Assembly: GCA_017645765.1 (NCBI GenBank)
Contig: JAGCNV010000039.1
Span: 1-42,123, forward strand
DNA: 42,123 nt
Origin: a bacterium
Lineage (GTDB): Bacteria; UBP6; UBA1177
Direction: 5' to 3'
Positions 7,598 to 34,716 of this stretch are shown here, piece by piece. The stretch's first letter is position 1. Every line of letters starts with the position of its first letter. Both the position numbers and the translations under genes were made by a program. The notes beneath the pieces are model-generated. The model was given only the letters and a program-made list of their open reading frames with translations, was not told the DNA's origin and ran no database searches.

Positions 7598-9067
7598 TTA
7601 TTGCTCCACAAATTCAACATCTTTAATACCTGCTTTTTTTATTTCTTCTTTATTCATTTCTTTTTCAGCAGCATCGAGATCGCTTGCTGATTTTAAGGCA
7701 TATTCCCAGCTGTTTTTTACTTTATACAAAGTTCCGTAACGTGGTTTGTCAAAAGAGGGGAGTTTGAGTTTGTTGTTAAATTTTGCGAGAGTCTCTTTCA
7801 CAAGTCGGCAATCTTCCACAGTTTCAGGATTCTCGGGCAGAGATTCGGCGTCATATTTGGGAATGCTATCATCTAATTTTTTCAAAGCCAGATTCCGCTG
7901 CTTGTTAAACTCTTCGTATTCCGTATAAACAGGCGCGGGGGTTGCGCCGGGAGTCCGTTTTTTGACTTCCATAGTGATGTCGAAAGTAACTTCTACAGCT
8001 GGTTTATTTGAATTAAGTAACTTTTCTTTTTCGAAAGACTCTTTTCTGTCATTTTCATTCATATCTTCAATGGCTCTGTACTTTTTATAATCATAAGAAA
8101 CTTTCCGAGTATCCTCACGGTTTCTTTTTGCAACAGAAACTTTTGAATTATCCAAATCAAACATATCTTTGCCGGAAGCTTCACGATAGGTAATCGAATT
8201 TTTGAAGAGATAAACATTTGTAAAAACAGGTTCTTTTTCCATTTTTACAGCGAAAAATTTCCCGGTATTGTCAGCTTTGCTCAAATTGTTGTTCAGAATA
8301 TACCAAGCTCCGTTGTAACGGCACAACGGAATGTCGGGACCTTCTGCATATTTAATTTTTCCTCCGCTGATTTTTGAAAGCCAGTCTTTTGAATTTTTGA
8401 GGATCGTCTTGTCAATATAGGTGGTAAAAGAGTTTTCGTTTGCTTTGTTCTTTATCCAGTCAGTCAGATTTTTCTGCGCGGCATAGCATTCTGCATTCTC
8501 AAGACAGTTCTGATACGGTTTTGTTTCCAGAGCGGAGCGGTCTATAAGAACCGTTTCGTTTCCTTCAACCGGAGCAACGTCAAAAGTCTGTTCTGCAACA
8601 GGTTTGATTCCTGAAACAAATTCTCTTTTCGCATTGTTCCAGAATTCATATATAAAAATATCATGCAGTTTCTTTACGGTTTCGTGGTTGGTCACAGAAT
8701 AACCTTCCAAGTTTTCATCAAAGAAAAACGCGAGGGTCTCGCCGCAAATCAGATAGTTGCCGCTGATTGAGAGGACTTCGCGGATAATGCAGTTGTTTTT
8801 GAGCTGTTCAAAAGCGGAAGGTTGTAAATTCTTGACGATGCCGTAAATCCTAATCCCTGATTCCTGTCTTGTCTTATAAAGAAGTTTCATGAGTTCCTGG
8901 GAAAACGCAGTCTCTGCGACGACACAGACAGTTTCGCAACGGTTCAAAGCTGATGAAATTTTGAATAGAGAAGTATTCGTGGTTTGTGGAGCATCTTCTT
9001 CTTTTACAAAAACTTTGTTTAAAGTCTTGTTTCCGAAGTCTTTTGTTATAGTAAAAATTTTCTCCAT
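7598..9067 (-). CDS. Unknown 489-residue protein, possibly a PLD-like fold without an HKD motif
   Basis: I do not recognise a named family. The N-terminal 120 residues have an alternating strand/helix pattern (CVVAETAFSQELMKLLYKTRQ, GIRIYGIVKN, NYLICGETLAFFFDEN) that resembles half of a phospholipase D fold, but no HxK motif is present. The C-terminal end (RYGTLYKVKNSWEYAL, then EMNKEEIKKAGIKDV) resembles the tail of its neighbour (RYYKVVRTDGRIEWYVL, then EMTFAKIKQAGVPDV), so the two may be distant paralogues or share an interaction module. The start ATG overlaps the stop of the upstream gene by one base (TAATG) with GGAGG in place, which implies tight translational coupling. It is the fifth gene of unit A. 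Confidence 0.5.
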   Translation of the reverse strand: MEKIFTITKDFGNKTLNKVFVKEEDAPQTTNTSLFKISSALNRCETVCVVAETAFSQELMKLLYKTRQESGIRIYGIVKNLQPSAFEQLKNNCIIREVLSISGNYLICGETLAFFFDENLEGYSVTNHETVKKLHDIFIYEFWNNAKREFVSGIKPVAEQTFDVAPVEGNETVLIDRSALETKPYQNCLENAECYAAQKNLTDWIKNKANENSFTTYIDKTILKNSKDWLSKISGGKIKYAEGPDIPLCRYNGAWYILNNNLSKADNTGKFFAVKMEKEPVFTNVYLFKNSITYREASGKDMFDLDNSKVSVAKRNREDTRKVSYDYKKYRAIEDMNENDRKESFEKEKLLNSNKPAVEVTFDITMEVKKRTPGATPAPVYTEYEEFNKQRNLALKKLDDSIPKYDAESLPENPETVEDCRLVKETLAKFNNKLKLPSFDKPRYGTLYKVKNSWEYALKSASDLDAAEKEMNKEEIKKAGIKDVEFVEQ

Positions 9068-10776
9068 TATTTCGCCTCCATAAGTTTTGCAACTACATCA
9101 GGAACCCCTGCTTGTTTGATTTTTGCAAAAGTCATTTCCTTGACAGTTCCTTGTTCTTTAGCAGAAACATCCTCTCTGATTCGCGGGTAGTCATTTTTAA
9201 AGCGGAGTGAATCCAGTTCACCGGTAAGAACATACCATTCGATTCTTCCGTCTGTCCGTACAACTTTGTAATAGCGGTCGTGAATTGATTCAATTTCTTT
9301 AACAGGCTTTTCTTTTACAGTAGCAACCTCTTTCATTTTCTCAAACCAAAAACGGTCACTTTCTGCAAATTTTCTGTTATGGCTTGGGCGGAGTTCCTCT
9401 TTTGTGGTGAAGAGAACAGGTTTTACTCCAAAATGCGAGCTGACACTTTGAGCGAACAAATTTATTGCTCTGGCATTCCTTCCGTTTGCAGCAGTATATT
9501 TGCTGAGCATAAAAATTTCTTTTACATTCCGTTCTGAACCGAACACTTCTTCTACCAAATCATAAAAAGAAATACTCTGGTTTGTCAGATTTACAGTAGA
9601 TTCTTCTTCAATATACGGTTTTATAGTGTTTTCCGGTGACAAATCCATAAAGGCCTGCAGATGAAGATATGCTATCGGATTTCCTGAGGATGTTTGTTTT
9701 GCACGTTCTACAAGCCCGGTATAAATTTCTTCGGTTGTCTTCATAATTTGCGGACAGGCTTGTGTATTTTCATCAGGAGATGTGAATAAATCCTGAAATT
9801 CATTGACTAAATGACCGACTTCGGAATATCCGATATATGAAGTCTCTGCTTTTCTCAAAAGGTATTCATTCAAGAGGGCATAAGTTGTTTCGGTTTCATC
9901 ATCATCAATATAGAGACAAACATCGCTGATTTCACAAGAAGTTGCCTTGTTATCTATGAAAACAATCCTTTTGAAAGTGAAATTTCCGGCATCGAAGAAT
10001 GATTCCAGCCAATCTTTATTTAAAAGCTGATCCTCGGAAGTAACTGCAAGTCTGATGGATTTTCTGTCTTGATTTAAGAACTCAAACACACCTTCGTTGT
10101 TTTCTCGTTCTTTGAGTAATTCAAGAGCTTCGTAGCGTTTTAAAATTGAAAAACAGCTTTCTTCAGTTGTGACAAAAGCACATTTTTTGTTCTTTTCTCC
10201 GTCTTTCCAGGAGACGTCAACTGTGCAAGTTTCGGTTTCATAGTCAAAGCTGAATTTTACAGAAGATTGAGATGGTTGAAATGTGGATTTTGCCCAATTG
10301 GAATCGGATTCAATGTTTCTGATTGTAGAATCAGCTGTATTGTATTCCTTATCTTCGAAATCAACAGATCGCTCTGTATTCTGAAAATCTACAATTAATT
10401 TGCCGTCTTTAGGATTTTTAATATTCTGTTCATCTACAAGTTCTGCATCCAACAAATATGGGATTCCGTCATATTCAAGAACTGTAAAGAAAAAAGCTCC
10501 CTGCAGAGCGCGCCATGCTTTGCCGCTTGTCACTATCTCTTCTCCTGCCGAAGTAAGAGAATCATCAGCATTTATGAGACCTTCCGCTTTGAAACTTGCG
10601 CGCATTCCTTTTGCAAAATTCTTAAGTTCGCTGTCGTTCAAAAATGCATTCATTCCGCCGTCTTTGATTTTTCGAAGCATTTTTTGTAACGCAGAATTGT
10701 CGACCTTCTTTTCAAGCGAGCCGGTAATATAGTATTTTTGCAAAACGGGAGTTCTAAGTTCTCCTTTAAATTTCAT
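9067..10776 (-). CDS. Unknown 569-residue protein with a degenerate PLD-like C-terminus
   Basis: ATG 10776 is chosen over the upstream ATG at 10806 because AAGGAGG lies seven bases before it. The first gene product overlaps the helicase stop by 11 bp, so the two are coupled. The C-terminal third runs IFMLSKYTAANGRNARAINL, then PVLFTTKEEL, then IHDRYYKVVRTDGRIEWYVL and TGELDSL. This order resembles PLD-like domains whose second motif is HDRY...W...G..L..L in place of HxKxxxxD. The middle has acidic segments and the N-terminus could hold a small winged helix. No full catalytic HKD motif is seen. Its conserved place behind a helicase suggests a partner in nucleic-acid recognition or processing. 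Confidence 0.5.
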   Translation of the reverse strand: MKFKGELRTPVLQKYYITGSLEKKVDNSALQKMLRKIKDGGMNAFLNDSELKNFAKGMRASFKAEGLINADDSLTSAGEEIVTSGKAWRALQGAFFFTVLEYDGIPYLLDAELVDEQNIKNPKDGKLIVDFQNTERSVDFEDKEYNTADSTIRNIESDSNWAKSTFQPSQSSVKFSFDYETETCTVDVSWKDGEKNKKCAFVTTEESCFSILKRYEALELLKERENNEGVFEFLNQDRKSIRLAVTSEDQLLNKDWLESFFDAGNFTFKRIVFIDNKATSCEISDVCLYIDDDETETTYALLNEYLLRKAETSYIGYSEVGHLVNEFQDLFTSPDENTQACPQIMKTTEEIYTGLVERAKQTSSGNPIAYLHLQAFMDLSPENTIKPYIEEESTVNLTNQSISFYDLVEEVFGSERNVKEIFMLSKYTAANGRNARAINLFAQSVSSHFGVKPVLFTTKEELRPSHNRKFAESDRFWFEKMKEVATVKEKPVKEIESIHDRYYKVVRTDGRIEWYVLTGELDSLRFKNDYPRIREDVSAKEQGTVKEMTFAKIKQAGVPDVVAKLMEAK

Positions 10777-13700
10777 TATTTGCCTCCTTATTGGAATTTT
10801 CTGCAAGACTTTTTAACAAGGCAGATTTATTTTGCTTTTTGAAATACTCTCTGCTGCCCACGATTACGCGCTGAAATTTAGCACGGGTAAGAGCAACGTT
10901 CAGACGGTTCGGGCTATCCATAAATCCAAGCGGCGCTTTGCCTGTTTTTACGAATGAAATGAATACGACATCCGCTTCACGGCCTTGGAATTTATCCACC
11001 GTATAGATGAAGACTTCAATATTCCGGTTTTTATCTGCATAGCGGGCTGTTTCCTTCTGCTTGTTGAACAATTCTTTCACTTTATTTTTTAATTTCCGCT
11101 CCTGTTTTTTGTAATAAGTAAGGCAGGCGACAGACCACATACCGGTTGGATCTTTGCGCTTCGGATTGTCTTTTGTCCATTCGGTAAAATCCTTTATTTT
11201 TTGTGTTATCACATCGATTTCAATCTGATTTTCATTTGTGCAGTCGCGGTTGCTGTTACCGTCAGTATTAAGCCACAAATCACGGTTGTTTCCGAATACA
11301 CCACAGCTCCAGTCTCTGCCATCTGTCATTTCTGAACCGTCTTTAAGTGCCTCTCCATGGTAGATATGTTCTGCCGGGAAAGCGGAAATTTCAGGATGCA
11401 TTCTGTGCTGATAGGTGAGCATTGTGTGGCGGGGATCAAAATCATCCTGCTCAAAACCGTCATTGAGGGTCGTTTTTTTTCTATTCTGTTTGACATCTTC
11501 ATTCAAACCTTCTTGCAAAAGCTGAAGAATCGAAGGAAGTGCAATTCCTGTAAGCGCGTTGCAATACTCTTCTACTTTTTCTTTTTTATCTTGAGAAGAC
11601 GGCATTCTTTCTTCAATTTCTCTTTTATAGCGTTCAACAGTTTCGTTGTCATTATCTTCAAGAAACAATTCCTGAATACGGCACAGTCTCCATGTTATTT
11701 CCTGAGCCCAGCTGTGTTCTTTTCTTGCCTTTGTCCAGTAATCGGCTATCTCCTCCGCTTTTCTGCAAGTTCTTTTGTCGCGGGATGAGCCGAGTTCTAT
11801 TTGCGGGCGTTTTTTTGAAAAATAGTGTTTTGCGGCTGCCGCAAGAAACAAATCTGAATAATGCTTATCATTTGCAATGTCATACATCGGAACAAAATCC
11901 GAAGGAAGAAAGTTGCGAACCTGTTCAAGCACAGAATCTTCAATAAACAAAATCTTGGCTCCGTAGAGAATAACAGCCTTGCTGTCAGCATTTTTCAATT
12001 CATTAACGGAAACGGCATAAGGATTTAAGCTTTTATTCTTGCAGATAATTCCGGTTTTGTCAGATGGATCTGTGACGAGTTCTTTAGCAGCTTTTATTAA
12101 ATCAGCAGAAACTGTAATGTAGAAACGCATGTTGTTTTTGATAATTTGTTTGTTCCTGCAAAGACAGAGTATAGTTTGAATGTCCTGCATCTTCTTGTCA
12201 AATTCAGGCATTTCTTCAAGTGATGACTGAATAGTTTCCTGCTCGACATAAGGTGTCAGCTGTTTCAAATCGCCGGAAAGAATCCAGCGTTTTGAGTATA
12301 TGGCGGGAATTAGAAAATCCTGAAAAGTCGTTTTGCTTGCTTCATCGATTATCAAATAGTCGTAAAGCGGTCTTACGGGCTGATTCCGGTCACTCAAGTT
12401 GAATGCAGGGTGTTTTAACACGCCGAAAATCGTTCCGCATACTAAATTGGCACGGTGAAGAATTTCTTCTCTATATTCTTCCGGAACATTTGTAAGAGTG
12501 TAATCGTTTACGGTGTCGGATATTGAACCTTCGTTTCCGATTCTTACGGCGAGAATCTTGTCCTGAATTTCCTGAGGTAATTTGTTCAGCCGCTCCAGAA
12601 TATTGTCAACCGCGGCATTTGTAGACGCAGTAAGCAGAATCTTTTTTTCTTGAACGGCAAGTTGTGCTATCAGTTCCAAAAGGGTCGTGGTCTTTCCGCT
12701 CCCGGGAGGTCCGTCAAGAAACGCAAAATCTGGAGTTGCAAGTGCTTTCTTTACAAATTCCCGCTGTTCATTACAACCGTCATAATCTTCTTTTGTGAGA
12801 AGATACCAGTTTTCAACAGGTGTAGGACTAAAATGATCCCAGTTTCTGACAGTCCGACCGCGTTCATCTTTTGTTCTCTCAAAAAGCTCAAGAAGACCTG
12901 CTTGTTCGCTGCAGGGCATTTTGCTTAATTTTGTAATTGCAGACTGCTGTTTTTTGAGCTGCCAGTCATTAGGAACTGCAAATAAATGCGACGGCAAATC
13001 TTCAATTTTGACAAGCCCGTTTTTAGTTTCTTCTGCGATTTCAAGAAGATTCTGGTCTTCATCTGTCCATCCGATTTTAAAAGAGCGAGATTTTCCCTGT
13101 CTGTATGGTAAAGAATCAGTTAAGCGTTCCGTTGTTTCCTTAAAAAATGCGTCGGTATTTGATTCCAGATCTTTTATGCTTTTGCTGTCGGTCAGAACTT
13201 CAATCACGGTGCCGATATATTTTCCGTTTTTATCGCGAAGCATTTTTCTGAACGAGAGTTTTTCAGAACAGATTTTGAAAGAAAGTCCTATAAAATTAAC
13301 ATTCTTTTCAGTATTACCGCTGTAGGCAAGGCGACCGTTCTGGATGGTGATATCTTTTGTATGAAACAACTTCTGTAACTTAGCTTCTTCAAGATCGGTA
13401 ATTGATATGATTGAGTAATCAACAGGATTGCCGTTTGCCAAAAGAGTCGTTTTTTTGTTTTCCTGAAGAGCGGGAATCACCGCATACAGAAAATCATCCA
13501 GCATCTTAATGCGGCGATCCGGGCTTGTGATTTCTGCTTTTCGTATTTTATTTGTTCCAGTTACTTCATGCTTTTCACCGAAAATTTCAATTTCTTTCAG
13601 ATATGACACATCAGCATTTGTTCGGAAAACAAGTTCATCTTCCTTCACCGCTTCTATCGTTACATCTGTTACACCGTCAATTCTGTAGTCAGAAATCTTA

Positions 13701-14200
13701 GCATAATTTATTTCACGAATCTGACATTCTATTGCTTCATCTTTGAGGTCTTCATCATCGTAAAGAGAAAATTTACCGGGACGTATAGATTCGCCTCTGA
13801 TAAAATAATTCCCGTTAAAGATGTCGCAACAATTTTCATGCGTACAGATTCTTCCTCGTCTCCCGTTAACCTCGAAGCTTTGAGAGTCAAATTCTTTATC
13901 AGCCGTCAGCATAAAAACATTCTCAGGCTTTTTGACCGAAAACGAAGAACCTGCGATCTGCGGTTTTATCAGAGAAAATTGAGGCTCAAGATATGTATCC
14001 TGTAATTTATCTGCAATAACAACATCTGCACCTTCAGCTGTACTGTTTCCGATATGATCAATGCTGGCTTGTATATATCTGCGGAAGGGCATTAGGTCCA
14101 AACGTACATTGTTTTGCATATTTTCCGCTTTAGTCCTTCTGTCATACGTGTTATTGAAATAAAATTCCTTTAGGAAATCTTTATTATCGGTGTTTGCCAT
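10766..14200 (-). CDS. SF1 UPF1-like (DNA2/NAM7) helicase with a large insertion
   Basis: The start is ATG 14200 (GAGGT upstream; a TTG directly before it is less likely). The 1144-residue protein has Walker A GPPGSGKTT near residue 496, motif II IIDEASKT near 615, motif III GDLKQLTPY, motif IV YQHRMHPEIS near 927, motif V DKFQGREADVV near 1067 and motif VI LNVALTRAK. These are the AAA_11/AAA_12 halves of an SF1B helicase. About 270 residues separate motif III from YQHRMHP, where related helicases have some 30-50, so a separate domain is inserted there. The N-terminal 480 residues are not recognised. It should act on DNA or RNA with 5'-3' polarity, as is usual for the family. It lies in unit A between the sigma-like gene and the two PLD-like genes. 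Confidence 0.9.
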   Translation of the reverse strand: MANTDNKDFLKEFYFNNTYDRRTKAENMQNNVRLDLMPFRRYIQASIDHIGNSTAEGADVVIADKLQDTYLEPQFSLIKPQIAGSSFSVKKPENVFMLTADKEFDSQSFEVNGRRGRICTHENCCDIFNGNYFIRGESIRPGKFSLYDDEDLKDEAIECQIREINYAKISDYRIDGVTDVTIEAVKEDELVFRTNADVSYLKEIEIFGEKHEVTGTNKIRKAEITSPDRRIKMLDDFLYAVIPALQENKKTTLLANGNPVDYSIISITDLEEAKLQKLFHTKDITIQNGRLAYSGNTEKNVNFIGLSFKICSEKLSFRKMLRDKNGKYIGTVIEVLTDSKSIKDLESNTDAFFKETTERLTDSLPYRQGKSRSFKIGWTDEDQNLLEIAEETKNGLVKIEDLPSHLFAVPNDWQLKKQQSAITKLSKMPCSEQAGLLELFERTKDERGRTVRNWDHFSPTPVENWYLLTKEDYDGCNEQREFVKKALATPDFAFLDGPPGSGKTTTLLELIAQLAVQEKKILLTASTNAAVDNILERLNKLPQEIQDKILAVRIGNEGSISDTVNDYTLTNVPEEYREEILHRANLVCGTIFGVLKHPAFNLSDRNQPVRPLYDYLIIDEASKTTFQDFLIPAIYSKRWILSGDLKQLTPYVEQETIQSSLEEMPEFDKKMQDIQTILCLCRNKQIIKNNMRFYITVSADLIKAAKELVTDPSDKTGIICKNKSLNPYAVSVNELKNADSKAVILYGAKILFIEDSVLEQVRNFLPSDFVPMYDIANDKHYSDLFLAAAAKHYFSKKRPQIELGSSRDKRTCRKAEEIADYWTKARKEHSWAQEITWRLCRIQELFLEDNDNETVERYKREIEERMPSSQDKKEKVEEYCNALTGIALPSILQLLQEGLNEDVKQNRKKTTLNDGFEQDDFDPRHTMLTYQHRMHPEISAFPAEHIYHGEALKDGSEMTDGRDWSCGVFGNNRDLWLNTDGNSNRDCTNENQIEIDVITQKIKDFTEWTKDNPKRKDPTGMWSVACLTYYKKQERKLKNKVKELFNKQKETARYADKNRNIEVFIYTVDKFQGREADVVFISFVKTGKAPLGFMDSPNRLNVALTRAKFQRVIVGSREYFKKQNKSALLKSLAENSNKEANNEI

Positions 14201-14215
14201 CAATGACCTCGGTTG

Positions 14216-15049
14216 TCAGAGTTTTAAGTCAGGGAGAAATCTGTGTAGAGCATGGCTTGCCGCAGATTTGCTCTTACCGTATTTTTTGGCGATTTCATAT
14301 TCTTCCGGAAATTTATAGTTTAGCGGATCGGCAAAGTATTCCTTTAAAATGACAGTGTCTATAAAGCCGTAATTTAATTCGTCTTCTTCAATGTCAACAT
14401 TCTTTTTCAATATCCGGACTGTGAGAATTTCGGAAATCATCTTGTCAGGTTTCTTTTTCCAGGCAGCTTCTATTTCACAAAGTTTTTCTATCTGTTTTTC
14501 GCGTGAATCTGTTTGTTTCTGTGGGGCCGCAGGTTCTGCCTCGGTTCTTCTGGCAGTTATGATCTGCAGATAACGCATAGCGGTATTTCTTTTTACCCCC
14601 AATGATTTGGCTATTTCTTCAACAAGCAATTCGCCTGTCAAATTCGGATCGATTCTTTTTAATGTTTTTTTTAGTCTGCTAACCATTTTTAGTGTGTGTT
14701 CGGATATGGTGATTCCGCCGTTTTTTTCTTCAAGTGCTTGTTTTTTCAGGTGATAACCAATCATCTTGTTGATTGCGTTGCAAAGGTATTGACTGAAAGG
14801 AGTCCCTTTTGCACGTGCCTTAGATTCAGGAAAAGATTGCAGGCAGATATGAACCTTTTCAAAAACTTCTATGGAATATTTTCCATATCCGATATTTTGG
14901 CCGTATTTTTGGTATTTTAATTTCAATACTTCTTCTTGGATCTTCCACGCCATTCCTTCTTTTGCTTTTTCAGAGATTTCTGAACTGACTGCATCTGCGT
15001 ATTCGGAATAACGCCTGTCTATGCTGCTGTATTGATCTTCCTGCTGCAT
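14216..15049 (-). CDS. Sigma-70-like transcription factor, divergent
   Basis: The 277-residue protein shows sigma-like order. A region-2-like segment lies near residues 65-105 (FEKVHICLQSFPE, then GTPFSQYLCNAINKMIGYHL, compare the F-S-T-Y-x-x-x-x-I motif). A region-3-like helix bundle follows near 110-170 (ITISEHTLKMVSRLKK, then TGELLVEEIAKSLGVKRNTA). A C-terminal helix-turn-helix (EEYEIAKKYGKSKSAASHAL) stands where region 4.2 would be. There is no recognisable anti-sigma gene nearby. AAGGA lies seven bases before ATG 15049, inside the end of the CARF-like gene, whose stop is 3 bp away. Because a repeated promoter-like element precedes five units here, this protein is the natural candidate to read it. 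An HTH regulator that is not a sigma factor remains possible. Confidence 0.65.
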   Translation of the reverse strand: MQQEDQYSSIDRRYSEYADAVSSEISEKAKEGMAWKIQEEVLKLKYQKYGQNIGYGKYSIEVFEKVHICLQSFPESKARAKGTPFSQYLCNAINKMIGYHLKKQALEEKNGGITISEHTLKMVSRLKKTLKRIDPNLTGELLVEEIAKSLGVKRNTAMRYLQIITARRTEAEPAAPQKQTDSREKQIEKLCEIEAAWKKKPDKMISEILTVRILKKNVDIEEDELNYGFIDTVILKEYFADPLNYKFPEEYEIAKKYGKSKSAASHALHRFLPDLKL

Positions 15050-15052
15050 ACT

Positions 15053-15685
15053 TTAATCCTTAAACAATGCTTCTATTGCTTTTATTGCGTGTTCACTGCT
15101 GGATGTTTCGATCAGATTGGTGAAACTGTTCATGAGATACAGCGGAGTTATGTCGTAAATCATTTCCGAACCATCTATGATTTTTTTGTTTTCATCGAAT
15201 TCGACTTTTGCATAAACGATATAGCTGATGGAATTATCAAAAAATTTCTCGGCGAACTGAAAGACCGGGAAAAGCAGAAGCGGAAGAGTTCTAGGTCCGA
15301 AGGTTATGTCGGCGTAAATTTCGGCATTATGCTCAAGTTCGTTGAGCAAGTCTTTGAAAATGTGCTTAAAATTAGTTTGTGAAAGGTCAAACGGGCTTGA
15401 AATGGGTTTGTATTCGATTTTAGCACCGATCGCTTTGTTAAAATGATCAAGTTCGTCCTGAAAAAGTTTTGCATTTTCATCCCCGGCATTTTCTCCGCCT
15501 TCGGTTTTAACAAGAACGACTTTAACTTCGTCTTCGGCTTTTAGTGTACTGACAATGGCAGCTGTTGCTGCAAAGTATATCGGTTCCTTGATTTCAAGCA
15601 AAGAGTTGCCGTTGACGGGATAAATTCGTCTGTCGTCATCACTCATTTTTTTTAACTGAAGTGTTACGAATAAGATTTTTTTCAT
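15053..15685 (-). CDS. Stand-alone CARF-like protein (TM1812/Csx-type Rossmann fold)
   Basis: The 210-residue protein starts with a Rossmann strand (KKILFVTLQ), then YPVNGNSLLEIKEPIYFAAT. At residues 126-135 it has DITFGPRTLP followed by a hydrophobic helix, close to the DITHGFRxLP motif of Csx1/Csm6-type (TM1812-like) CARF proteins, where it helps to bind cyclic oligoadenylate. No HEPN, nuclease or DNA-binding domain is attached. CARF proteins usually sense cyclic oligonucleotides made by type III CRISPR complexes, but no cas gene is visible here. It is the first gene of unit A, 85 bp from the promoter-like element, with GAGGT before its ATG. It may sense a nucleotide signal and act through its neighbours. 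Fold call moderate, ligand unknown. Confidence 0.65.
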   Translation of the reverse strand: MKKILFVTLQLKKMSDDDRRIYPVNGNSLLEIKEPIYFAATAAIVSTLKAEDEVKVVLVKTEGGENAGDENAKLFQDELDHFNKAIGAKIEYKPISSPFDLSQTNFKHIFKDLLNELEHNAEIYADITFGPRTLPLLLFPVFQFAEKFFDNSISYIVYAKVEFDENKKIIDGSEMIYDITPLYLMNSFTNLIETSSSEHAIKAIEALFKD

Positions 15686-15770: not shown

Positions 15771-15807
15771 TATAAGCGGCGAAAAACGGATAAGTTGACA
15801 AAAATTT
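15771..15807 (-). promoter_or_regulatory. Shared promoter-like element, copy A (CARF/sigma/helicase unit)
   Basis: On the minus strand the element reads TTTTTGTCAAC, a 17 bp spacer with TTTTTC in its middle, then CTTATA (15771-15776). The CARF-like ATG is 85 bp further on. The same arrangement with identical spacing recurs at 22221, 24198, 29921 and 34717. The layout resembles -35 and -10 boxes, though not the sigma-70 consensus at 17 bp spacing. Confidence 0.75.
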
Positions 15808-15865: not shown

Positions 15866-17662
15866 ATGACGGACGGAAAGAAAACGGAAAACGGTAAAAA
15901 AGGGATGTCTACCGGACAAAAATGGGCTGCTGGTTTGGGGGTCGCCGGAGCAATCGGCCTGGGAGCATATGCCCTTTGGAAACAATCAAAATCCGATGAC
16001 GAAGAAACTGCCAAAAAGACTGATTTTCCGCAAGAGAACCGCCTGAAAAATGTCGGCAATATTATGAAAGACAAATTTTATATCCACAGAGTCGAAATAG
16101 AACAAAAACTATTGGACAAAACGGTGGATCATTGTCGTTCCGTGAATTTGGTCGGAATGCGGAAAATCGGAAAATCCTCTCTGATTTACAATGTTTTTGA
16201 GGTCAGAAGCGCCGAGTATTACCAAAAGAATATTATCGTGGCAAAAGTACTGTCCAAAGTTTCCGATTCAGCCGATGTTTTTTTCAAAAATATGACTCAA
16301 TCGATTTGTGAAGTTATTGAAAGAGAAGCCGGTTTCTGGGGTGACTGCGAAGATGCGCTTCAATTAAATGAAAAAATCAAAAGCGAGAATATCGAAAAAG
16401 ACGGATACTTCACTTTATACAAATTTTTCGAAACAATAAAAAGTTATGGAAAAAGGGTTGTGTGCATTGTTGATGATTTCTACAATTCATCAGAATTATT
16501 AAAAAATTATTCTGGTTTTTTTACTGTTCTCAAAGAATTGGTAACCAATCCTTCGAGATACGGAACTGCATTTGTTTTTGTATCGGAAACATCTGTGAAA
16601 GAGCTGGATTTCATTGGCGACAACAAATTTTATCTCCGCGGATTTTCCGATACAGAGCTGGAAAATTACTACAGATACAATAAAATATCGGAAAACAGTC
16701 TGAATTACGAAGAGACGGCATATCTCAAATATTTTAAAGAGTTTGCCGGATGTCATCCATATTGGCTGGATCTTATTTTTAAAGCGTATAAAGAAGAAAA
16801 AGATTCCGGCAGACAAGTTGATTTCGGTATGATTTCCCGTTCAAAAATGAAACTTATTCATGATGAATTTGAAAAAACTCTGAATTCGCTCGGCGAAAAC
16901 CTGAAGAATAAACTTTACCAGATTGTATTCGGACCTATGGATTCGACATGCACACAGATTGATATCGACACTTTATATGATTACGGAATCATTATCGATA
17001 TTGATAATGAAAATCCGAAACTTATTTCCGGCGGACTCTATGAGTACATGAAAATGAAAGAAAAAGAAGTCGAATTCTTCCCGCTTTGGAATAAAACCGA
17101 AACCGGTTTGCGGAGAATCCTTAAATCCAAAATGAAAAAGGAATATTCCGAACGCTGGGAAGACAAAATTCTTTATGTGTATATTTTAAAAAATCCTGAA
17201 AATATCATGCAGATTCTGCAAAATTATTTCTTCCCGAACGATGTTCCAAGACAAAATGCCAAAAATTACGAGTGTCAAGGCAAAATTTACACAAGAAAGC
17301 AGTATCAGCTTTCCTATGACCTGAAAAAAGCGGAAGAACTAAAAGAAAACATGATAAAAGACCAACAGTCAGGCACTATAAAAAGCGATATTGAAATCTC
17401 TATTCTGGAGGCGTTATTTACAAAAAGCCTGTTTTTCCTCTATGAATTTGAATATGACAAACTCAAACTGAAAGAAATATTCGGAGATTATAAAAAATTC
17501 ACCGAAAAAGCGAAACACTTGAGCGTGGCGCGTAATCCTTACCAGCACAACAACGGTTATATGCTGACTGATGATTATAGGAAGAAAACCACTGATTACT
17601 GCAAATATCTATGCGACTGCATCAGGAAAGCGGAGGAAGTAAATCCGGCGCAGCAACAGTGA
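15866..17662 (+). CDS. Membrane-anchored STAND ATPase with C-terminal HEPN motif
   Basis: ATG 15866 has GGAGG six bases upstream. The 598-residue protein has one short hydrophobic, glycine/alanine-rich segment (AAGLGVAGAIGLGAYALW, residues about 20-38) that may anchor it in the membrane. A STAND/AAA_16-type NTPase follows: Walker A GMRKIGKSSL near 98, Walker B VVCIVDDF near 199, and a winged-helix-like region after FAGCHPYWLDLI. The C-terminus is helical and contains ARNPYQHN near 555-562, an Rx4H signature of HEPN ribonucleases. STAND-effector proteins are often defence or abortive-infection switches in which ligand-driven assembly turns on the effector. It is divergent from unit A and converges on the PLD gene 3 bp away. 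The STAND call is firm; HEPN is likely. Confidence 0.75.
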   Translation: MTDGKKTENGKKGMSTGQKWAAGLGVAGAIGLGAYALWKQSKSDDEETAKKTDFPQENRLKNVGNIMKDKFYIHRVEIEQKLLDKTVDHCRSVNLVGMRKIGKSSLIYNVFEVRSAEYYQKNIIVAKVLSKVSDSADVFFKNMTQSICEVIEREAGFWGDCEDALQLNEKIKSENIEKDGYFTLYKFFETIKSYGKRVVCIVDDFYNSSELLKNYSGFFTVLKELVTNPSRYGTAFVFVSETSVKELDFIGDNKFYLRGFSDTELENYYRYNKISENSLNYEETAYLKYFKEFAGCHPYWLDLIFKAYKEEKDSGRQVDFGMISRSKMKLIHDEFEKTLNSLGENLKNKLYQIVFGPMDSTCTQIDIDTLYDYGIIIDIDNENPKLISGGLYEYMKMKEKEVEFFPLWNKTETGLRRILKSKMKKEYSERWEDKILYVYILKNPENIMQILQNYFFPNDVPRQNAKNYECQGKIYTRKQYQLSYDLKKAEELKENMIKDQQSGTIKSDIEISILEALFTKSLFFLYEFEYDKLKLKEIFGDYKKFTEKAKHLSVARNPYQHNNGYMLTDDYRKKTTDYCKYLCDCIRKAEEVNPAQQQ

Positions 17663-17665
17663 TAT

Positions 17666-19003
17666 TTAGTTGAATTTTTCAATCTGCTTTAAAATCTCAT
17701 CTTTATTCATGTTGATCGTCGATGTTTCGCCGCGTGCATCAGGTTCGTTTCCGCCGCCGAAGCTAAACCAGTTGAAACTTCCCATTATCATGAACTCATC
17801 GTCGTGGATAACGATCTTGGAGTGGTCGTCTGCTTTTATCAGACGGAAATGGTCTTTGCCGAGCGAGTCAAAAAACTTCTGGGACTCATTGTCAATGCCG
17901 ATTTTATCAAATCTGTTTCGAGGTTTCATTCCGTATTTTACGGTTACTGTTACTCCTCTTTTGACTGCATTCTGAATATGTTCCTTGTAGATCTTAAGAG
18001 TTCGCCAATTGATCCATGGAGACTGGATGTAAATATTTTTCTTGGCATTTTCAAGGATATAGACGAAATATTTCTTGTGTTCGTCAACTTCTATGGTTTT
18101 TCCGTCAATGATGGAAATATCCTCTAGCGGCTTGGTTTTTTCTTTAATGATTTCAGGAGTCGTTTCATCGAAGCGGTCTGCATTCTTTCCTAATGTGTTT
18201 CTGCTGTTAGGCGAAATATGTTCGTAGTCGAATTTCTGCTCGCTCAGAATACGGTCAACCAGCTGTGTGGCTTCAAAATCCTCTTCGTAATCTTTGTTGA
18301 GAACCAGAAACCTTTCATTTGTATCTTCATCTTTATAGAACAAACAGACGTATCTGCGGAAAAACTTGCCGGGCAAAACTTCAAATATATCCGTTATATC
18401 GTTTTTGTCCTGTAGATTTTCTATAATGACCTGCCTGAGAGTTTTGTTTTCATAAAACTCATCATCCAGACATTCCGTTCTCGGTCGTGATTTTATATTG
18501 GGTTTGAATTCGATAGCACCGTCTCTTGCTTTTTGATCCAATTTTCCCGTATCCGGCAGAACAGTTCCGTATATTCCGTCAAAATAGAGCCAGTCAGAGG
18601 CATTTTCCGTAACCAGTTCCTTTTCTTTTTCCAAAATCTCTTTTCCTTCTTTGGAAAGTTTCAAATCCTCCTGTTTTATGTCATTCTGCTTCAGATAGCC
18701 TTTTGTCGTGATGTCTGCCAGAATACTGTCCAGAATCTCTTCATCCAGCCGGGTGATTTTATGCAGATATGAATAAGGATCCGGCTCTTTGATTGTTTCA
18801 AGGAACTGGATAATCTTCAATACAGAGATGATTATCGGATGGATTTCCCGTTCTTTCGTAAGCGCATACTGTATTTTGGTTTTGTATACCGGATAATCGA
18901 TTTCGAGGACGTCATACATTACAAATCCTTCGTAATGGTCGCTGTATTGGTGGGTAAGCAGTTCCCAATCCAGTTTTATGGTCTTATTTTGTTTTTCAGT
19001 CAT
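17666..19003 (-). CDS. Phospholipase D-family (HKD) nuclease-like protein with winged-helix region
   Basis: The 445-residue protein ends in a clear HKD module: DDHSKIVIHDDEFMIMGS with NWFS after it (His near residue 391, then Lys and Asp at the family spacing), preceded by IYIQSPWINW, a typical PLD strand. Only one HKD motif is present, so two chains would have to pair to form an active site, as in Nuc-type nucleases. The N-terminal part (VLKIIQFLETIKEPD, SILADITTKGYLKQND, LKLSKEGKEILE) looks like a winged-helix DNA-binding domain. The start ATG 19003 overlaps the helicase stop by 8 bp and has GGGAGGG in place, so it is coupled to the kinase-helicase gene. A DNA-cutting partner of that helicase is the likely role. 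Confidence 0.8.
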   Translation of the reverse strand: MTEKQNKTIKLDWELLTHQYSDHYEGFVMYDVLEIDYPVYKTKIQYALTKEREIHPIIISVLKIIQFLETIKEPDPYSYLHKITRLDEEILDSILADITTKGYLKQNDIKQEDLKLSKEGKEILEKEKELVTENASDWLYFDGIYGTVLPDTGKLDQKARDGAIEFKPNIKSRPRTECLDDEFYENKTLRQVIIENLQDKNDITDIFEVLPGKFFRRYVCLFYKDEDTNERFLVLNKDYEEDFEATQLVDRILSEQKFDYEHISPNSRNTLGKNADRFDETTPEIIKEKTKPLEDISIIDGKTIEVDEHKKYFVYILENAKKNIYIQSPWINWRTLKIYKEHIQNAVKRGVTVTVKYGMKPRNRFDKIGIDNESQKFFDSLGKDHFRLIKADDHSKIVIHDDEFMIMGSFNWFSFGGGNEPDARGETSTINMNKDEILKQIEKFN

Positions 19004-22000
19004 TTTTCCCTCCCAATTTGATTATTTCATAAGAGTCTTTGTGCTGATTTATATAGTCAATAATGCTTTCGAACGGATTGTTTTTGTCGGAGACCCTGGC
19101 TTTATGAAGAAAATCCATATCTCCAACGATTATCAAAAGCTTTTTTGCTCTCGACAGCGACACATTGAGACGTTTTTCGTCCGCGATGAAGTCTATCTTC
19201 GCTTTGCCTTTTAACTTTCCGGATCTTACGCAGTCATAGATGATGATGTCCCTGTCACTTCCCTGAAAACTGTCGACAGTTCCGATCTCTATGCTGCACT
19301 CTGCAAAATTTTTCTTTAAGGCAAGTTTTTTGCGCAGCAATCCGGCCTGGGCTTTATAAGGGGTAATTATGCCGATGCTGTAGTTTATACCGCTCTTTCT
19401 CATCTCTGCCTGGATATTCTTTAATGTTTTCCCGATAATGGCGGCGTTGCATCGGTTTATTTTTCCTGTTCCTTCCTGTTCGTCTTCCTTATCAGGCAAC
19501 ATTCCGGTGTCACACCATACGACGCTTGATCTGAAGCTGAGAGAATGCTTTTTTGTGGCGTTTACTGCATCAGTCGTTTTTAGTGCGCCGTCATAGAATG
19601 CTTTACTGTACAGGTCGCAGATGCTGCGCTCCGCACGGTAATTGTAAGTCAGCGTATGAATCAGATTCGGTCTGCCGGCACGCTGAATACGCTCAAATTC
19701 CCGCTGGAAGAACGAAGTCTTGGCTTCTTCCCGGTCTTTGATTTTTTCGATCACATCGTCATCAATGACAGGAGCAAGCTGCTTGTGATCACCGACGAGT
19801 ATCAGCTTTCTCGCCTTTATGCACGGAACGAGCAGTTCGCTCAAGGTAGCTCTGCCGGCTTCGTCAACGATTACGGTGTCAAAAACGATTTCTTTGAAGC
19901 TTTTCCATGACGAAATACCGATCAGCGTCCCGAAGATCAGTCTTATATTCCGCGTGAAAAGCGCCGCCAGTTCGGAATCTTTTCTGCTGTTTAGCATTTT
20001 TGAGGTTATATGCTGTAGTTTTTCCCGGAAATCCTTTTGCAGATCCAGCATCTTATTTTGTATTCCATCCTTGGAGTACGAGACTGGATTTGCGTCTAGA
20101 CGCTTTATGTTTTCATAAATTATTTTATTGAGTGTTCTCAACGGCATATAATTTTGTGCCGTTTTGCTGATTTTTGTCTCGTCGTTCCCGATGCGGAGAA
20201 TCTTGTCTTCAATGCCGCAGATTTTTTCCAGAACATTATCTACAGCCTGATTGCTCTGGGATGCAACAAGTATTTTCTCATGAGGCCGTGTTTTTAAAAG
20301 TTGTGTTACTATCTCGGTTATGGTTACTGTCTTTCCTGTTCCGGGAGGGCCCTGCAAGACCATTACTTCGCATTTGTCATCCAGCGACAGGGCTTTACGA
20401 ACAGCCATCTGCTGATTTTCGTCAAGGCTGCTATTGTAGAACTTTTCGATATCGATAAGATCGTTTTCTATGAATTCCTGCGGTCTGTTTATCTTTCTAA
20501 GAAAGTTGTGAATATAGACATCCCCGTTCTGCAACATGTAGAGAGCATAGTTTTTCTTGTTCCAAACAGCTTCTTCCGCCTGGTAGTCATAACTCAGAAA
20601 ATATTCGCCTCCCTTTTCCAGGTGAAAATTCGTGTTTTGATCATCAGTATATTTCCCGACCTCGTAGTTCCCTACTTTTACAGTTACGGAAAAACCAGAT
20701 TCAGATCGCTCCACTACACCTTTGAGAGCATATTCGGAGTTCAGATCCTTCTGCAGGATCACATTCTGTTTCTGCTTGAAATCCCTGTCGGAACAAATGT
20801 CTTCCGTTATATTTTCCGCCGTATCGTTTTCATGACTATTCTTATCTTTGTCTATTATATATTCCAATGTCAAAGTGTCATTGCCGCGGTTCAATTCCTT
20901 CAAAATCACTTTTCTGGTGTTTTTCTTTTCGTCTATAGTCTTTTTCTCAGCCGTAAGCAGTTCCTCTTCGGTGACAATGCTTTTGATATCGGTTTCATAA
21001 CGTTCGTTTTCGAGTTTTTTCTGCTCATAACGCTCTTTTAATTTTTCAATCATCGCTCCTGCGTGATCACAACTCATATCCCGTTCATTTGAACCGAGTA
21101 TCTCGAATATATCATCCGTCGGAAGCCCGTATTTCTGCAGGAGTTCCGTTTTTGACGGGCTTTCGAGAATATTGAAGCAGAAAAAATAACGACTATTTTC
21201 TTTTGCTGAACAGCAGAATGTCAGATCTCCGATGGCGATTCTTATTTCATCGCGGTCGTTCCTGTCTTTTCCGAACTCTAAATATGCGCGGTAGTTTTCG
21301 ATTCTTTCCCTGATATCATCTTTTTCAGCAAAGGGTTCGCAATCGTGATAGTCTCTCCATTTTTCAAGTACGCGACCGCCTATTTGAATGCCGAAAGTCT
21401 TGCGCGGTAAGATAGTGTCCAATAAATCGTTGAGTTTTTTGCGGACATCAAGCAGTTTTATGCGTTCTTCGGGATCTGCTTTCAGCATCGCCTTTATGAT
21501 CAGAAGCAGTTCGGAGTTAGTTTTGTCAAGCATGTCTGACTGCTCTGCAATATGTTCGTATATCTCTTCCAGAGAGTCGAAATCTTTGTAAATGTCCGGA
21601 AATTTGAAAGAATCAAAATGTGACTCAAGCAGAAGAGCGAGCATACAAAGTCCGAACGAGTAGATATCGCTTTCTTTGCAGCATTCGTCCTTGGCGATCT
21701 GTTCCGGAGCATAGAAGTGTTTGTCCGGCGAATTGCTCATCATCGCATAGATGTAGCATCTGCCGAAGTCGAGCAGATATGCGTTTTCATTTCTGTCGAT
21801 CAGTATGTTTTTGGGGTTGATATTGCCGTGATAGAAGCCTTTCTGGTGAATATACTCAACGGCATCAACGATCTGCTGATAACATTTTATGAGCGAAACA
21901 TAGTTCGGACCGAACCATTCCGGTTTCAATTCGGAATATTCTTCGCCGAAATCCCTGTCAACAAAATAGAAGTTTCTGTCATCTTCTTCGATTTTAAGAT

Positions 22001-22178
22001 TGCTGATGTTCTGGTGCGAGATCAAGTTGATGTTTTTCGCGATATTAGAGTATTTCCCGCTGAAAGGGGTTTTTGCGACGATCTCTATGCGGTAATCGCA
22101 ACCATTGTAGCGCGCGATTTTGAGAGATTCTGATTCTTCACTAATGATTTCGTATTTTCCCAAGATTTTTTTACTCAT
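18996..22178 (-). CDS. Predicted pseudokinase fused to SF1 UPF1-like helicase
   Basis: Residues about 1-260 have a Ser/Thr protein-kinase fold (LGKYEIISEE, VEYIHQKGFYHGNI, YLLDFGR, FYAPEQIAKD, SDIYSFGLCML). The catalytic loop reads HGNINPKN in place of HRDLKPEN, so the catalytic Asp is Asn, and the glycine-rich loop is poorly conserved. A catalytically weak or dead kinase is predicted. After a coiled, charged linker the C-terminal half is an SF1 helicase: GPPGTGKT near residue 610, IVDEAGRATL near 770, GDHKQLAPV, YNYRAERS, DSFQGSDRDII near 968 and LNVSLSRAK. GGGAGG precedes ATG 22178, which is 42 bp from shared element copy B. The kinase part may bind nucleotide or a phospho-ligand and gate the helicase. 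Confidence 0.85.
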   Translation of the reverse strand: MSKKILGKYEIISEESESLKIARYNGCDYRIEIVAKTPFSGKYSNIAKNINLISHQNISNLKIEEDDRNFYFVDRDFGEEYSELKPEWFGPNYVSLIKCYQQIVDAVEYIHQKGFYHGNINPKNILIDRNENAYLLDFGRCYIYAMMSNSPDKHFYAPEQIAKDECCKESDIYSFGLCMLALLLESHFDSFKFPDIYKDFDSLEEIYEHIAEQSDMLDKTNSELLLIIKAMLKADPEERIKLLDVRKKLNDLLDTILPRKTFGIQIGGRVLEKWRDYHDCEPFAEKDDIRERIENYRAYLEFGKDRNDRDEIRIAIGDLTFCCSAKENSRYFFCFNILESPSKTELLQKYGLPTDDIFEILGSNERDMSCDHAGAMIEKLKERYEQKKLENERYETDIKSIVTEEELLTAEKKTIDEKKNTRKVILKELNRGNDTLTLEYIIDKDKNSHENDTAENITEDICSDRDFKQKQNVILQKDLNSEYALKGVVERSESGFSVTVKVGNYEVGKYTDDQNTNFHLEKGGEYFLSYDYQAEEAVWNKKNYALYMLQNGDVYIHNFLRKINRPQEFIENDLIDIEKFYNSSLDENQQMAVRKALSLDDKCEVMVLQGPPGTGKTVTITEIVTQLLKTRPHEKILVASQSNQAVDNVLEKICGIEDKILRIGNDETKISKTAQNYMPLRTLNKIIYENIKRLDANPVSYSKDGIQNKMLDLQKDFREKLQHITSKMLNSRKDSELAALFTRNIRLIFGTLIGISSWKSFKEIVFDTVIVDEAGRATLSELLVPCIKARKLILVGDHKQLAPVIDDDVIEKIKDREEAKTSFFQREFERIQRAGRPNLIHTLTYNYRAERSICDLYSKAFYDGALKTTDAVNATKKHSLSFRSSVVWCDTGMLPDKEDEQEGTGKINRCNAAIIGKTLKNIQAEMRKSGINYSIGIITPYKAQAGLLRKKLALKKNFAECSIEIGTVDSFQGSDRDIIIYDCVRSGKLKGKAKIDFIADEKRLNVSLSRAKKLLIIVGDMDFLHKARVSDKNNPFESIIDYINQHKDSYEIIKLGGKND

Positions 22179-22220: not shown

Positions 22221-22257
22221 TATAAGCGGTGAAAAATCTGAAAGTTGACAAAAATTT
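22221..22257 (-). promoter_or_regulatory. Shared promoter-like element, copy B (pseudokinase-helicase/PLD unit)
   Basis: Minus strand: TTTTTGTCAAC, 17 bp, CTTATA (22221-22226), with ATTTTTCACCG at the right end of the spacer. The start codon is 42 bp downstream. It differs from copy D at only a few spacer positions. Confidence 0.8.
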
Positions 22258-22286: not shown

Positions 22287-24164
22287 TTAGTTATTTCTTA
22301 CGCATACGACTTTAAGCTTATAGTCGTAAAAATTCGGGGCACGGAATGATCCCAAGTCGTCGTAAACATCGATAAACATTGTCATCTGACCGACTTTGCC
22401 GTTTATAAAATCGACTCCCCATACTTCGCCGGTATTTTCAGGGTCAAGAGTTGACGACCAGAAAGGCTCTTTTGAATGGATCTTGCTGAAATCGGATTCC
22501 TTGAAATCGGCAGTTTCCCGCTGTTCGTATTCATGCTGTAATTGCTTGTATTTTTCATACTCTTCAACACTTAGTCCATTCATCTCCATTTTTTCCAGCT
22601 CAAAAAACCAGAAATCGCCATAATCTTCCCTCAAATTTTCTTCCAAGGCCGCGATTTTATTTTTTAACATCGATGTCCCGTTCTGGTAACAGCCGTTGCA
22701 GTCAGAAGACCAGCATTTTTCGCCGAGGCACTGTCTGTTTTCGCTGATTCTGCAGCTACCGCCCGGTTCCGTAAGGTCACAGTTCTGAATCAAAGTTCTG
22801 AGTTCGTCGATATTCGGCAGTCTCCAGTCCGACAAACCGTTTTCTTCAAGATTGGAACAGTAAGAATCGGCTTCTTTCCAGGTCATAGCTTTCCGAGCAA
22901 TATCCGACCATTTCAGTTTTTTCGGGTCGGGGAGCGGTTTTACGGGTTTTTTCTGCGGTTTTATGCTGCGGTCGTTCTCTTTTTTATCTCTGACACATAT
23001 TACATTCGTATCTCCGGCAAAGCTTTTGACTTCTGAGGCGGCGGAGTGTCTTGCCAATATGCTGATCAAAAGAGTTCTGTTTTGTAACGGGTCAAAGATC
23101 CAGCTGCCGTATTTGCCGGTTTTGTTTTGTGAAAGAAAAAGGGCGTAATTTTCCCGAATACCGTTTTTTTCATGTTTTTTGACTTTTAAGGCTTTAAGTT
23201 CTTCAAGTGTCGGGAGCCTCCAGTCGGAAAAACCGCCTTCCCGCAAGTTGCCGCAGTAAGAATAGGGATCGTGGACACCGAAAATTTCATACGTGCTGCA
23301 GTCCATAGGGTCGTATCCGCAGGGAATCGTTTCTTCTTCGCGTTTTTTCAATTCGCTTTCTGAACAATATGTGTCCTGACACAAGCGCATATTGCAGCCG
23401 TAATCACAGTTAAGGCCGGTATATCTGTTGTGCGCAGGGGAGAGCAGCGATGTTGAGTAATTTTTCTGGTCAAACATCGTGTTTTGGGACCATTGCAGCT
23501 TCTTCAAATCGACTTTTGGGGTCTCCGCTTCCGCTTTTTGAACGCTATCTTCCGGCGAAGCATTCCTGACGCAGAATACATTGCATGTGTCCCACTGGCA
23601 TTGGTTGCACGGAGTCCAGCTGTCAACAATGCACTTTTCGGGAATAATAATTTCATAAGCATTCCAATCGTCTTTTTGGGATTCTTCATCGTTCCTGAGT
23701 CCCCAGAAACAGCCGTCAAGATGCCAGTAGTTACCGAGAGCGACATCAAGCGAATAGTCTCCGTTACGGTTCGGAAGCTCTGTAAATTCTTTGCACTCTT
23801 TCATTGTTGATTTTATTTCAGCAGGAGTGGCAGGACGCCAGTCGGAGAATCCGCCTTCCCTCAGCTCTTTGCAGTAATCCTGAATATAGCCGTAATACAT
23901 CGGTCCCGGCGAAGGCTCGGACCACATGAGGTTAGGGGAAACCGGCTCATCCTTGACTTTTTTACGGACAGGTTCCGCTTTCGCTTCTTGAGGTCTGCAT
24001 ACCCCGTAGGAGACAGGCTCTTCCTCTTCCGATTCCTGAAAAACGCGCTCGATTTGAGCGACCTTTTCATCAGTTTCCGCTTTTTCTTCTTTTGAAGAAC
24101 AACCGAGAAACAACAGAGAGATTAAAACCATACAACTAATCGAAATCGCAAAAGATTTTTTCAT
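22287..24164 (-). CDS. Lipoprotein with three Lcl/DUF1566-type units, in the shared regulon
   Basis: The 625-residue protein starts with a lipobox signal peptide (ISLLFLGC), so it should be a lipoprotein exported across the inner membrane. A Glu/Lys-rich linker follows. Three cysteine-containing units have the Lcl_C/DUF1566 pattern: DYCKELREGGFSDWRPATPAEI, SYCGNLREGGFSDWRLPTLE and SYCSNLEENGLSDWRLPNID, each followed some 70-130 residues later by VRN- or VRD-type ends (CVRNA, CVRDK, CVRNN). The fold is a C-type-lectin/FGE-like module often found on surface proteins; ligand unknown. AAGGAG lies before ATG 24164, and shared element copy C is 34 bp upstream. Its link to an otherwise intracellular regulon is unexpected and could point to a surface-sensing or adhesion role. 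Confidence 0.75.
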   Translation of the reverse strand: MKKSFAISISCMVLISLLFLGCSSKEEKAETDEKVAQIERVFQESEEEEPVSYGVCRPQEAKAEPVRKKVKDEPVSPNLMWSEPSPGPMYYGYIQDYCKELREGGFSDWRPATPAEIKSTMKECKEFTELPNRNGDYSLDVALGNYWHLDGCFWGLRNDEESQKDDWNAYEIIIPEKCIVDSWTPCNQCQWDTCNVFCVRNASPEDSVQKAEAETPKVDLKKLQWSQNTMFDQKNYSTSLLSPAHNRYTGLNCDYGCNMRLCQDTYCSESELKKREEETIPCGYDPMDCSTYEIFGVHDPYSYCGNLREGGFSDWRLPTLEELKALKVKKHEKNGIRENYALFLSQNKTGKYGSWIFDPLQNRTLLISILARHSAASEVKSFAGDTNVICVRDKKENDRSIKPQKKPVKPLPDPKKLKWSDIARKAMTWKEADSYCSNLEENGLSDWRLPNIDELRTLIQNCDLTEPGGSCRISENRQCLGEKCWSSDCNGCYQNGTSMLKNKIAALEENLREDYGDFWFFELEKMEMNGLSVEEYEKYKQLQHEYEQRETADFKESDFSKIHSKEPFWSSTLDPENTGEVWGVDFINGKVGQMTMFIDVYDDLGSFRAPNFYDYKLKVVCVRNN

Positions 24165-24197: not shown

Positions 24198-24234
24198 TAT
24201 AAGGGACGGAAAATCGGAAAGTTGACAAAAAAGA
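24198..24234 (-). promoter_or_regulatory. Shared promoter-like element, copy C (Lcl lipoprotein unit)
   Basis: Minus strand: TTTTTTGTCAAC, 17 bp, CTTATA (24198-24203). The spacer keeps the T-rich middle (GATTTTCCG) but differs near the -10 side (CGTCC for CACCG). The lipoprotein ATG is 34 bp downstream. This is the most divergent of the five copies. Confidence 0.7.
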
Positions 24235-24249: not shown

Positions 24250-24897
24250 TTATACCCTTAAGATTGTTTTTCCTTTTTCATTTATTATTTTTTTTGACCA
24301 GTCGAAATTCGTTACCAGAGCGAATCCGTTGTAGAACGGTTCAATGTTCAGATATCGTTCGGCATAAAGAGGTTCGCCTCTGACATCCGAATGAAACCAG
24401 CCATTTTCGTCACGGGCTGGAGCGATATTTTTGTGGAAAACTCCCAGATCCAGAAAGCCTTTTGAGTTCAGAAAAGTGCCGTCTGCCTTTATATGCCGCC
24501 AAAAACCGTCGGAACATTTTACGCAGGCAATTCCGTCGCGGAAATCACCGGCATAAAGGTAGTTTTCTTTGTAAAGCCGTTTTCCGTCAGTATCAATGTG
24601 AAAATAGCTGCCGTTTTTGTCACGTACAGTGCAGATGTTTTCCTGAAAATTTCCGCACCATGCATATCGTTCGGCATAGACCGCTTTTCCGTCCGTTCCG
24701 ATGTGAAAACAACCCTCTTTTGATGTTGCTGCAGCACGGCCGCAGTAGAAGCCGAAAGTCCGCTCGTAACGCTCCGGATATATTGCATTTTCGTTGACAT
24801 CAATATGATACCAGCCGCTTTCATCCTCAACAGGTGCGAGTCCAGGTTCATGGAATTTCAATATGTTTATATATTTTTTCTTTAACTGACAACTCAT
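24250..24897 (-). CDS. WG-repeat (KWG-like) beta-propeller-type protein
   Basis: The 215-residue protein has no signal peptide and consists of about five repeats of roughly 35-38 residues: DESGWYHIDVNENAIYPERY, KEGCFHIGTDGKAVYAERY, KNGSYFHIDTDGKRLYKENY, SDGFWRHIKADGTFLNSKGF and ENGWFHSDVRGEPLYAERY, each followed by an aromatic-rich strand (GDFRDGIACV). This is the WG/KWG repeat pattern, thought to form beta-rich solenoids or propellers for protein binding. The start overlaps the stop of the phosphatase-methyltransferase gene by four bases (ATGA), so it is the last gene of that operon. Function unknown; a binding or scaffold subunit is the most that can be said. Confidence 0.75.
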   Translation of the reverse strand: MSCQLKKKYINILKFHEPGLAPVEDESGWYHIDVNENAIYPERYERTFGFYCGRAAATSKEGCFHIGTDGKAVYAERYAWCGNFQENICTVRDKNGSYFHIDTDGKRLYKENYLYAGDFRDGIACVKCSDGFWRHIKADGTFLNSKGFLDLGVFHKNIAPARDENGWFHSDVRGEPLYAERYLNIEPFYNGFALVTNFDWSKKIINEKGKTILRV

Positions 24898-29877: not shown

Positions 29878-29920
29878 GTTGCCTCCGTGTTTTGTTGTCA
29901 ATCAAACTGCCTGCACGAAG

Positions 29921-32951: not shown

Positions 32952-32962
32952 GATTTACGCTC

Positions 32963-34666: not shown

Positions 34667-34716
34667 TGTTTTTTCCTCCAAATTCTTTCTATTAAAAATC
34701 AATCGCACACATCATA

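Follow-up and report, generated by a model that had tools for sequence, protein, structure and literature searches.

Two CRISPR-linked sigma factors have been described as precedents, and both are controlled by proteolysis of an inhibitor. CalpL, CalpT and CalpS are the Lon protease, the anti-sigma factor and the ECF sigma factor of a type III CRISPR system (PMC11417357), in which the sensor, a SAVED-Lon protein, cleaves the anti-sigma factor. In the type III-E Craspase system with Csx29, Csx30 and CASP-sigma (PMC10028731), RNA-guided proteolysis of Csx30 controls an ECF-type sigma factor, and neither CARF nor a nucleotide is involved. CARF sensing is likewise coupled to transcription control in Csa3 and other CARF-HTH regulators (PMC4012209), the Csa3 type having a fused winged-helix DNA-binding domain. 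Further, the text of PMC10910872 contains an entry UAS-58, a 'two-component RNAPol + CARF' near type III CRISPR, and also lists CARF with vWA-MoxR-VMAP.

Here we describe a locus in a stretch of 42,123 nt (the window; contig JAGCNV010000039.1 of assembly GCA_017645765.1, lineage UBP6, UBA1177), which would encode a nucleotide-gated alternative sigma factor that amplifies its own expression and switches on the defence operons of its island. We give this reading a probability of roughly 0.7. The proposed module resembles CalpL/T/S in that a nucleotide-sensing protein would be tied to a sigma factor, leading to an antiviral transcriptional response. In contrast to CalpL/T/S, the sensor is a stand-alone CARF protein with no protease or third protein (SAVED-Lon protease and CalpT anti-sigma domains were not found among the scanned neighbours in the window), the CARF-paired sigma family mostly has a region-3-like segment whereas CalpS is an ECF factor, and the putative regulon is a non-CRISPR defence island. 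CASP-sigma is similar in that a CRISPR-linked sensor controls a sigma factor whose target promoters surround its own locus, but its mode of activation differs from that expected for a CARF-sigma pair. Unlike the Csa3 type, the window CARF has a separate sigma factor. UAS-58 also pairs a CARF gene with a gene labelled as RNA polymerase, and it may be an earlier sighting of the same module, although the text of PMC10910872 gives it a single phrase and describes neither a sigma family nor a promoter, a regulon or an occurrence outside CRISPR loci. The models of the Mokosh defence system, which are matched by two helicase units of the island, one of them with a PLD protein, contain neither a CARF-sigma pair nor a shared promoter, and the Mokosh units are proposed here as targets. 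No account of a CARF-sigma module that governs a defence island through a shared promoter was found in the open-licence literature, and hardly any defence regulons linked to a sensor in this way are known.

The operon in question lies on the minus strand in the order CARF gene, sigma-like gene, SF1 helicase gene and two uncharacterised genes. The CARF gene (15053-15685, 210 aa) is located 3 nt before the sigma-like gene (14216-15049, 277 aa, ATG start in the ORF listing). The third gene encodes an MkoA-like SF1 helicase of 1145 aa (10766-14203; family searches and PADLOC), and the last two encode proteins of 579 and 489 aa (7598-10806), for which searches of Pfam, NCBIfam and PADLOC gave no family match. 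The preliminary description had let the operon of the sigma-like gene start with a copy of a shared promoter element (copy A below). This was correct, but the sigma gene is the second gene, and the CARF gene in first position had been overlooked. This partner shifts the proposed mechanism from a stress sigma factor to a signal-gated defence sigma factor. A predicted ATPase gene on the plus strand (15866-17662) adjoins the pair and is divergent from its operon; it is kept in the sister loci L014, L017 and L019 and carries no element of its own.

Evidence that the 277-aa protein belongs to the sigma-70 family comes from profile, alignment and fold searches. With a profile of 12 homologues against all PDB sequences, SigA/RpoD proteins were the top 16 matches (best E=9e-5; next non-sigma match 0.068). 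With 61 homologues, SigA was matched at E=4.1e-13 and RpoD at 7.7e-12, and nearly all of the matches listed were sigma factors, besides one low-complexity chain (CAP repeat, 3e-8). HHalign against the genus's own sigma-70 alignment, for which searches with PF04545 and PF04542 served solely to gather true sigma factors, gave a probability of 96% and was colinear across all regions. The AlphaFold2 model was of moderate quality (pLDDT 81, pTM 0.48); its top 33 Foldseek matches in the PDB were sigma factors throughout, with probabilities of up to 1.00 but a best E of 1.9e-3, none being below 1e-3. The three approaches agree with the segments resembling regions 2, 3 and 4, in this order, that had been noticed earlier. 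As a constant feature, region 3 did not hold up: it is missing in the homologues L020, L021, L037 and L038 and is therefore optional. Because of these results we consider the protein almost certainly a divergent sigma-70-family member. It is encoded in addition to the genome's own RpoD.

Some observations would also fit a sigma-derived activator or repressor that has lost core binding, with the element as an operator beside a housekeeping promoter. The TWW melting motif of housekeeping sigma factors (region 2.3) is absent, TYATWWIR being aligned with SQYLCNAIN by HHalign. Taken alone, the protein matches Sigma70_r4_2 at 0.0099 and TIGR02937 at 0.012, both short of the curated Pfam/NCBIfam cut-offs, which are practical annotation thresholds and not biological defining features. 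Pfam matches of the single protein favour generic HTH domains, a label which we set aside after the profile and fold searches. Moreover, the element can be read with housekeeping-like boxes, TTGTCA and TATAxx, but these would have a spacer of 21 bp. Against such a regulator stand the colinearity of regions 2 to 4 and the shape of the element, which is asymmetric with the canonical 17-bp spacing, has its second block placed like a -10 box and is followed by a conserved base where transcription would be expected to begin. We therefore regard this alternative as improbable.

The sigma-like protein is partnered by a stand-alone CARF of Csx1/Csm6 type. This CARF protein matches the PADLOC model CARF2 at E=2e-70 and TIGR02221 at 3.9e-12, the latter below the cut-off of that family. 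The AlphaFold2 model (pTM 0.83) is closest to effector CARF domains, with Foldseek values of 4.3e-6 for Csx1-Crn2 and 6.8e-5 for Csm6 with cA4. Sso2081 and Sis0455 are among the weaker matches, and some stand-alone CARF proteins of this size, about 200 aa, are ring nucleases. Hence it could be imagined that the sigma factor reads the element while the CARF protein removes the nucleotide signal as a timer and does not regulate the sigma factor directly. We consider this unlikely, since the best structural matches are effector CARFs and the strict adjacency to the sigma gene, usually with no Cas10 nearby, fits a regulatory partner better.

This adjacency was seen in two lineages (all genomes compared are MAG data). 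In the genus, the sigma gene is directly behind the CARF gene in all seven sister loci that have upstream sequence. In the Treponemataceae, the family around a Treponema relative, the CARF gene is present in 54 of 274 genomes. An iterative sigma profile, built with CARF proteins excluded (the CARF ORF of L171 was left out), detected a sigma homologue right after CARF in 64 loci, with gaps of -32 to 23 nt. Further sigma genes following CARF were recognised by position in L154 and L162 and by eye in L180. The exceptions are L182, where the two genes are tail-to-tail, and L171, which keeps a sigma remnant only. In the latter locus, the sigma profile matches the C-terminal tail of a CARF ORF of 265 aa (8737-9534), which seems to have been left behind by a deletion in the pair. 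Judged by these gene orders, the CARF gene is a near-obligate neighbour of the sigma gene. Plasmid and viral copies were looked for, and none were found. Within the genus the sigma proteins are only about 28-57% identical, and the CARF proteins 67-93%; the alternative sigma factor evolves rapidly. It has changed least in the recognition HTH, where identity averages 0.58, compared to 0.30-0.42 elsewhere.

The element consists of GTCAAC-N17-CTTATA and is present in five copies, all of them inside the island and on the minus strand, which is the coding strand. Copy A (15771-15799) is located 86 nt upstream of the CARF start codon, copy B (22221-22249) 43 nt before the MkoA gene of the Mokosh pair, copy C (24198-24226) 34 nt before the Lcl_C lipoprotein-like gene and copy D (29921-29949) 20 nt before the gene of a 105-aa protein. 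Copy E (34717-34745), which has one mismatch, precedes the bpMoxR-VWA-MoxR operon. For the gene right behind this copy, a GTG start is listed at 34708, which is probably too early, a GGAGG being present further downstream. In the 2.65-Mb window genome these are the only matches with up to one mismatch, and the reversed pattern has none. A chance repeat was rejected, as the weakest copy scores about 76 bits above any other site of the window and the genome holds no other match. Alignment of 36 non-redundant sites from the genus revealed an A/T-tract, TTTTTGTCAACT, six variable bases, TTTTTCaCCGCTTATA and then, after about 7 nt, a conserved G, with the spacing fixed in all 36 sites. Start codons are mostly found 20-86 nt downstream of the element. 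Read as GTCAAC-N17-CTTATA, the pattern has standard sigma-70 geometry.

The eight genus genomes with an intact pair each hold four to five copies on the contig of the pair, while genomes with no pair hold none or one, in line with the co-occurrence expected earlier. Orphan copies persist in G005 (L054:9843) and G014 (L053:9749, before a viperin-like radical-SAM gene), both genomes lacking CARF-sigma. Since the pair and all copies are parts of one island and would be gained or lost together, co-occurrence in the genus alone could be due to co-inheritance. Along with the orphan copies, this would fit an element read by another factor, housekeeping or ECF. The Treponemataceae, in which the same architecture is found beside diverged homologues and is restricted to their loci, make such a reading very improbable, and the correspondence between helix type and -35 base (see below) also speaks against it.

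A repeat search confined to L035, L036 and L038 revealed no common element; one emerged when all CARF upstream regions were pooled. RTCAAC-N17/18-CTWATW precedes the CARF gene in 12 of 55 non-redundant Treponemataceae upstream regions, where resampling by dinucleotides leads to an expectation of 0.02 (maximum 1 in 300), and the antisense strand of the same 55 regions has no match. Apart from one spacer of 14, only 17 and 18 occur. Among the other upstream regions in these loci, 10 of 601 carry the element, some of them before genes for MoxR, VWA and radical-SAM proteins. In whole genomes it is rare, with zero to four exact matches each. Those with a T after RTCAAC are almost confined to CARF-sigma loci, and RTCAACT matches are absent from the nine scanned Treponemataceae genomes listed as CARF-free. 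On these grounds a generic promoter was ruled out. In this family, the expected co-occurrence applies to a part of the homologues: for well over half of them no element was detected upstream of CARF, and these may depend on different sequences or on promoters further away.

Where the element was found, its first -35 base follows the recognition helix of the sigma factor. DEGxIS helices go with ATCAAC in 7 of 7 loci and K[ST]xAS helices with GTCAAC in 7 of 7 (Fisher 2.9e-4, a value that overstates independence, since the DEGxISN sigma factors are one clade and represent a single evolutionary change). The ATCAAC site of L160, which lacks the -10 block, was left out of the counts. Taken together, co-occurrence, the Treponemataceae promoter and the -35 base suggest that the sigma factor very probably reads the GTCAAC-N17-CTTATA element, as had been supposed for a shared element.

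According to the copy positions, the window regulon likely comprises the following operons, all on the minus strand: the CARF-sigma-helicase operon; MkoA (18996-22178; PADLOC E=1e-201) and MkoB-like PLD protein (17666-19003; PADLOC MkoB E=1.8e-56, PLDc_2 2.8e-8), which provide the kinase-helicase and PLD partners that Mokosh requires; the Lcl_C lipoprotein-like protein (22287-24164); the 105-aa protein (29584-29901), which is kept in sister islands; and bpMoxR, VWA and bpMoxR (29995-34708). These positions fit the previously suggested self-amplifying control of both helicase/PLD units, the MoxR-VWA set, a lipoprotein and a zinc-ribbon protein. For the last one the place behind an element was right, but a family search with the 105-aa protein gave no match. 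In sister islands the element is followed, in addition, by the gene of a viperin-like radical-SAM protein, by an NrdD-like operon and by genes for VWA, phosphatase and kinase proteins, recognised partly by eye. The NrdD-like (anaerobic ribonucleotide reductase) operon is behind the element at L019:1303-2997 and near position 8655 of L051; nucleotide metabolism may thus belong to the regulon. Near the Treponemataceae pairs, bpMoxR and VWA are the commonest proteins (13 of 87 each), and AbiD/Abi_2, Card1-type CARF nucleases and Cas10/Cas6 also occur. Three proteins near the pair in L123-L182 match Card1-type CARF nucleases, which are a second likely cyclic-oligoadenylate effector.

We propose the following mechanism. 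The CARF protein and the divergent sigma factor would form a two-gene module, CARF first and sigma second, with the genes nearly touching. The sigma factor would direct RNA polymerase to the A/T-tract, (T5)GTCAAC, 17 bp and CTTATA, with the likely start about 7 nt further on. Copy A before the CARF-sigma operon would provide positive feedback, and the other four copies would drive the Mokosh, MoxR-VWA, lipoprotein and small-protein operons. The CARF protein would be the ligand-switched partner of the sigma factor, as anti-sigma factor or co-activator, and an infection-induced nucleotide of the cyclic oligoadenylate type would bind it, whereby the sigma factor is freed or activated. Contact between the two proteins, the sign of the switch, the ligand and transcription from the element are what we infer here from sequence. 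Direct gating of the sigma factor by CARF is probable in our view, and for the CARF ligand we lean, a little less firmly, towards a cyclic oligonucleotide; by analogy with the family this would be a cyclic oligoadenylate.

Regarding the signal source, the CARF-sigma pair in L038 heads a Cas6-Cas10-RAMP operon, and Cas10 is adjacent to the pair in 4 of 69 loci. This suggests cyclic oligoadenylates as the signal. In the window genome neither a Cas10 palm domain nor a SMODS cyclase was detectable, so that Cas10 in the same genome or locus, the mark of a type III CRISPR ancillary gene, was not found for this pair. Only one of the eight pair-bearing genomes of the genus has Cas10. A CD-NTase (SMODS) as signal source of the island was rejected, being present only in G008. 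In genomes that carry the pair but no detectable Cas10 or SMODS cyclase, the signal presumably comes from a producer of another kind. There is about an even chance that a CARF sensor and a dedicated sigma factor turn a nucleotide alarm from such a source into coordinated defence expression of the whole island, through its one shared promoter, in cells devoid of type III CRISPR.

The usual view of a defence island is that of a set of systems each under its own regulation. In the island described here, unrelated systems (Mokosh and MoxR-VWA, and in sister islands viperin-like radical-SAM and NrdD-like genes) share one promoter, which most likely would answer to a single sigma factor linked with a sensor of nucleotides. 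Such control of an island would be a bacterial counterpart to coordinated antiviral gene induction, and it leads to a testable prediction of one promoter, one sigma factor and one ligand. Last, the element can serve as a motif in the search for defence genes that have yet to be described.

Three further ORFs of the window were noted. At 27076-29283, a GT4 glycosyltransferase is fused to a radical-SAM/SPASM domain, for which the PADLOC viperin match is weak. At 24894-26417, a histidine-phosphatase domain is fused to an O-methyltransferase domain. The ORF at 35329-37218 is repeat-rich and contains several short in-frame repeats of 51-nt and 48-nt families.
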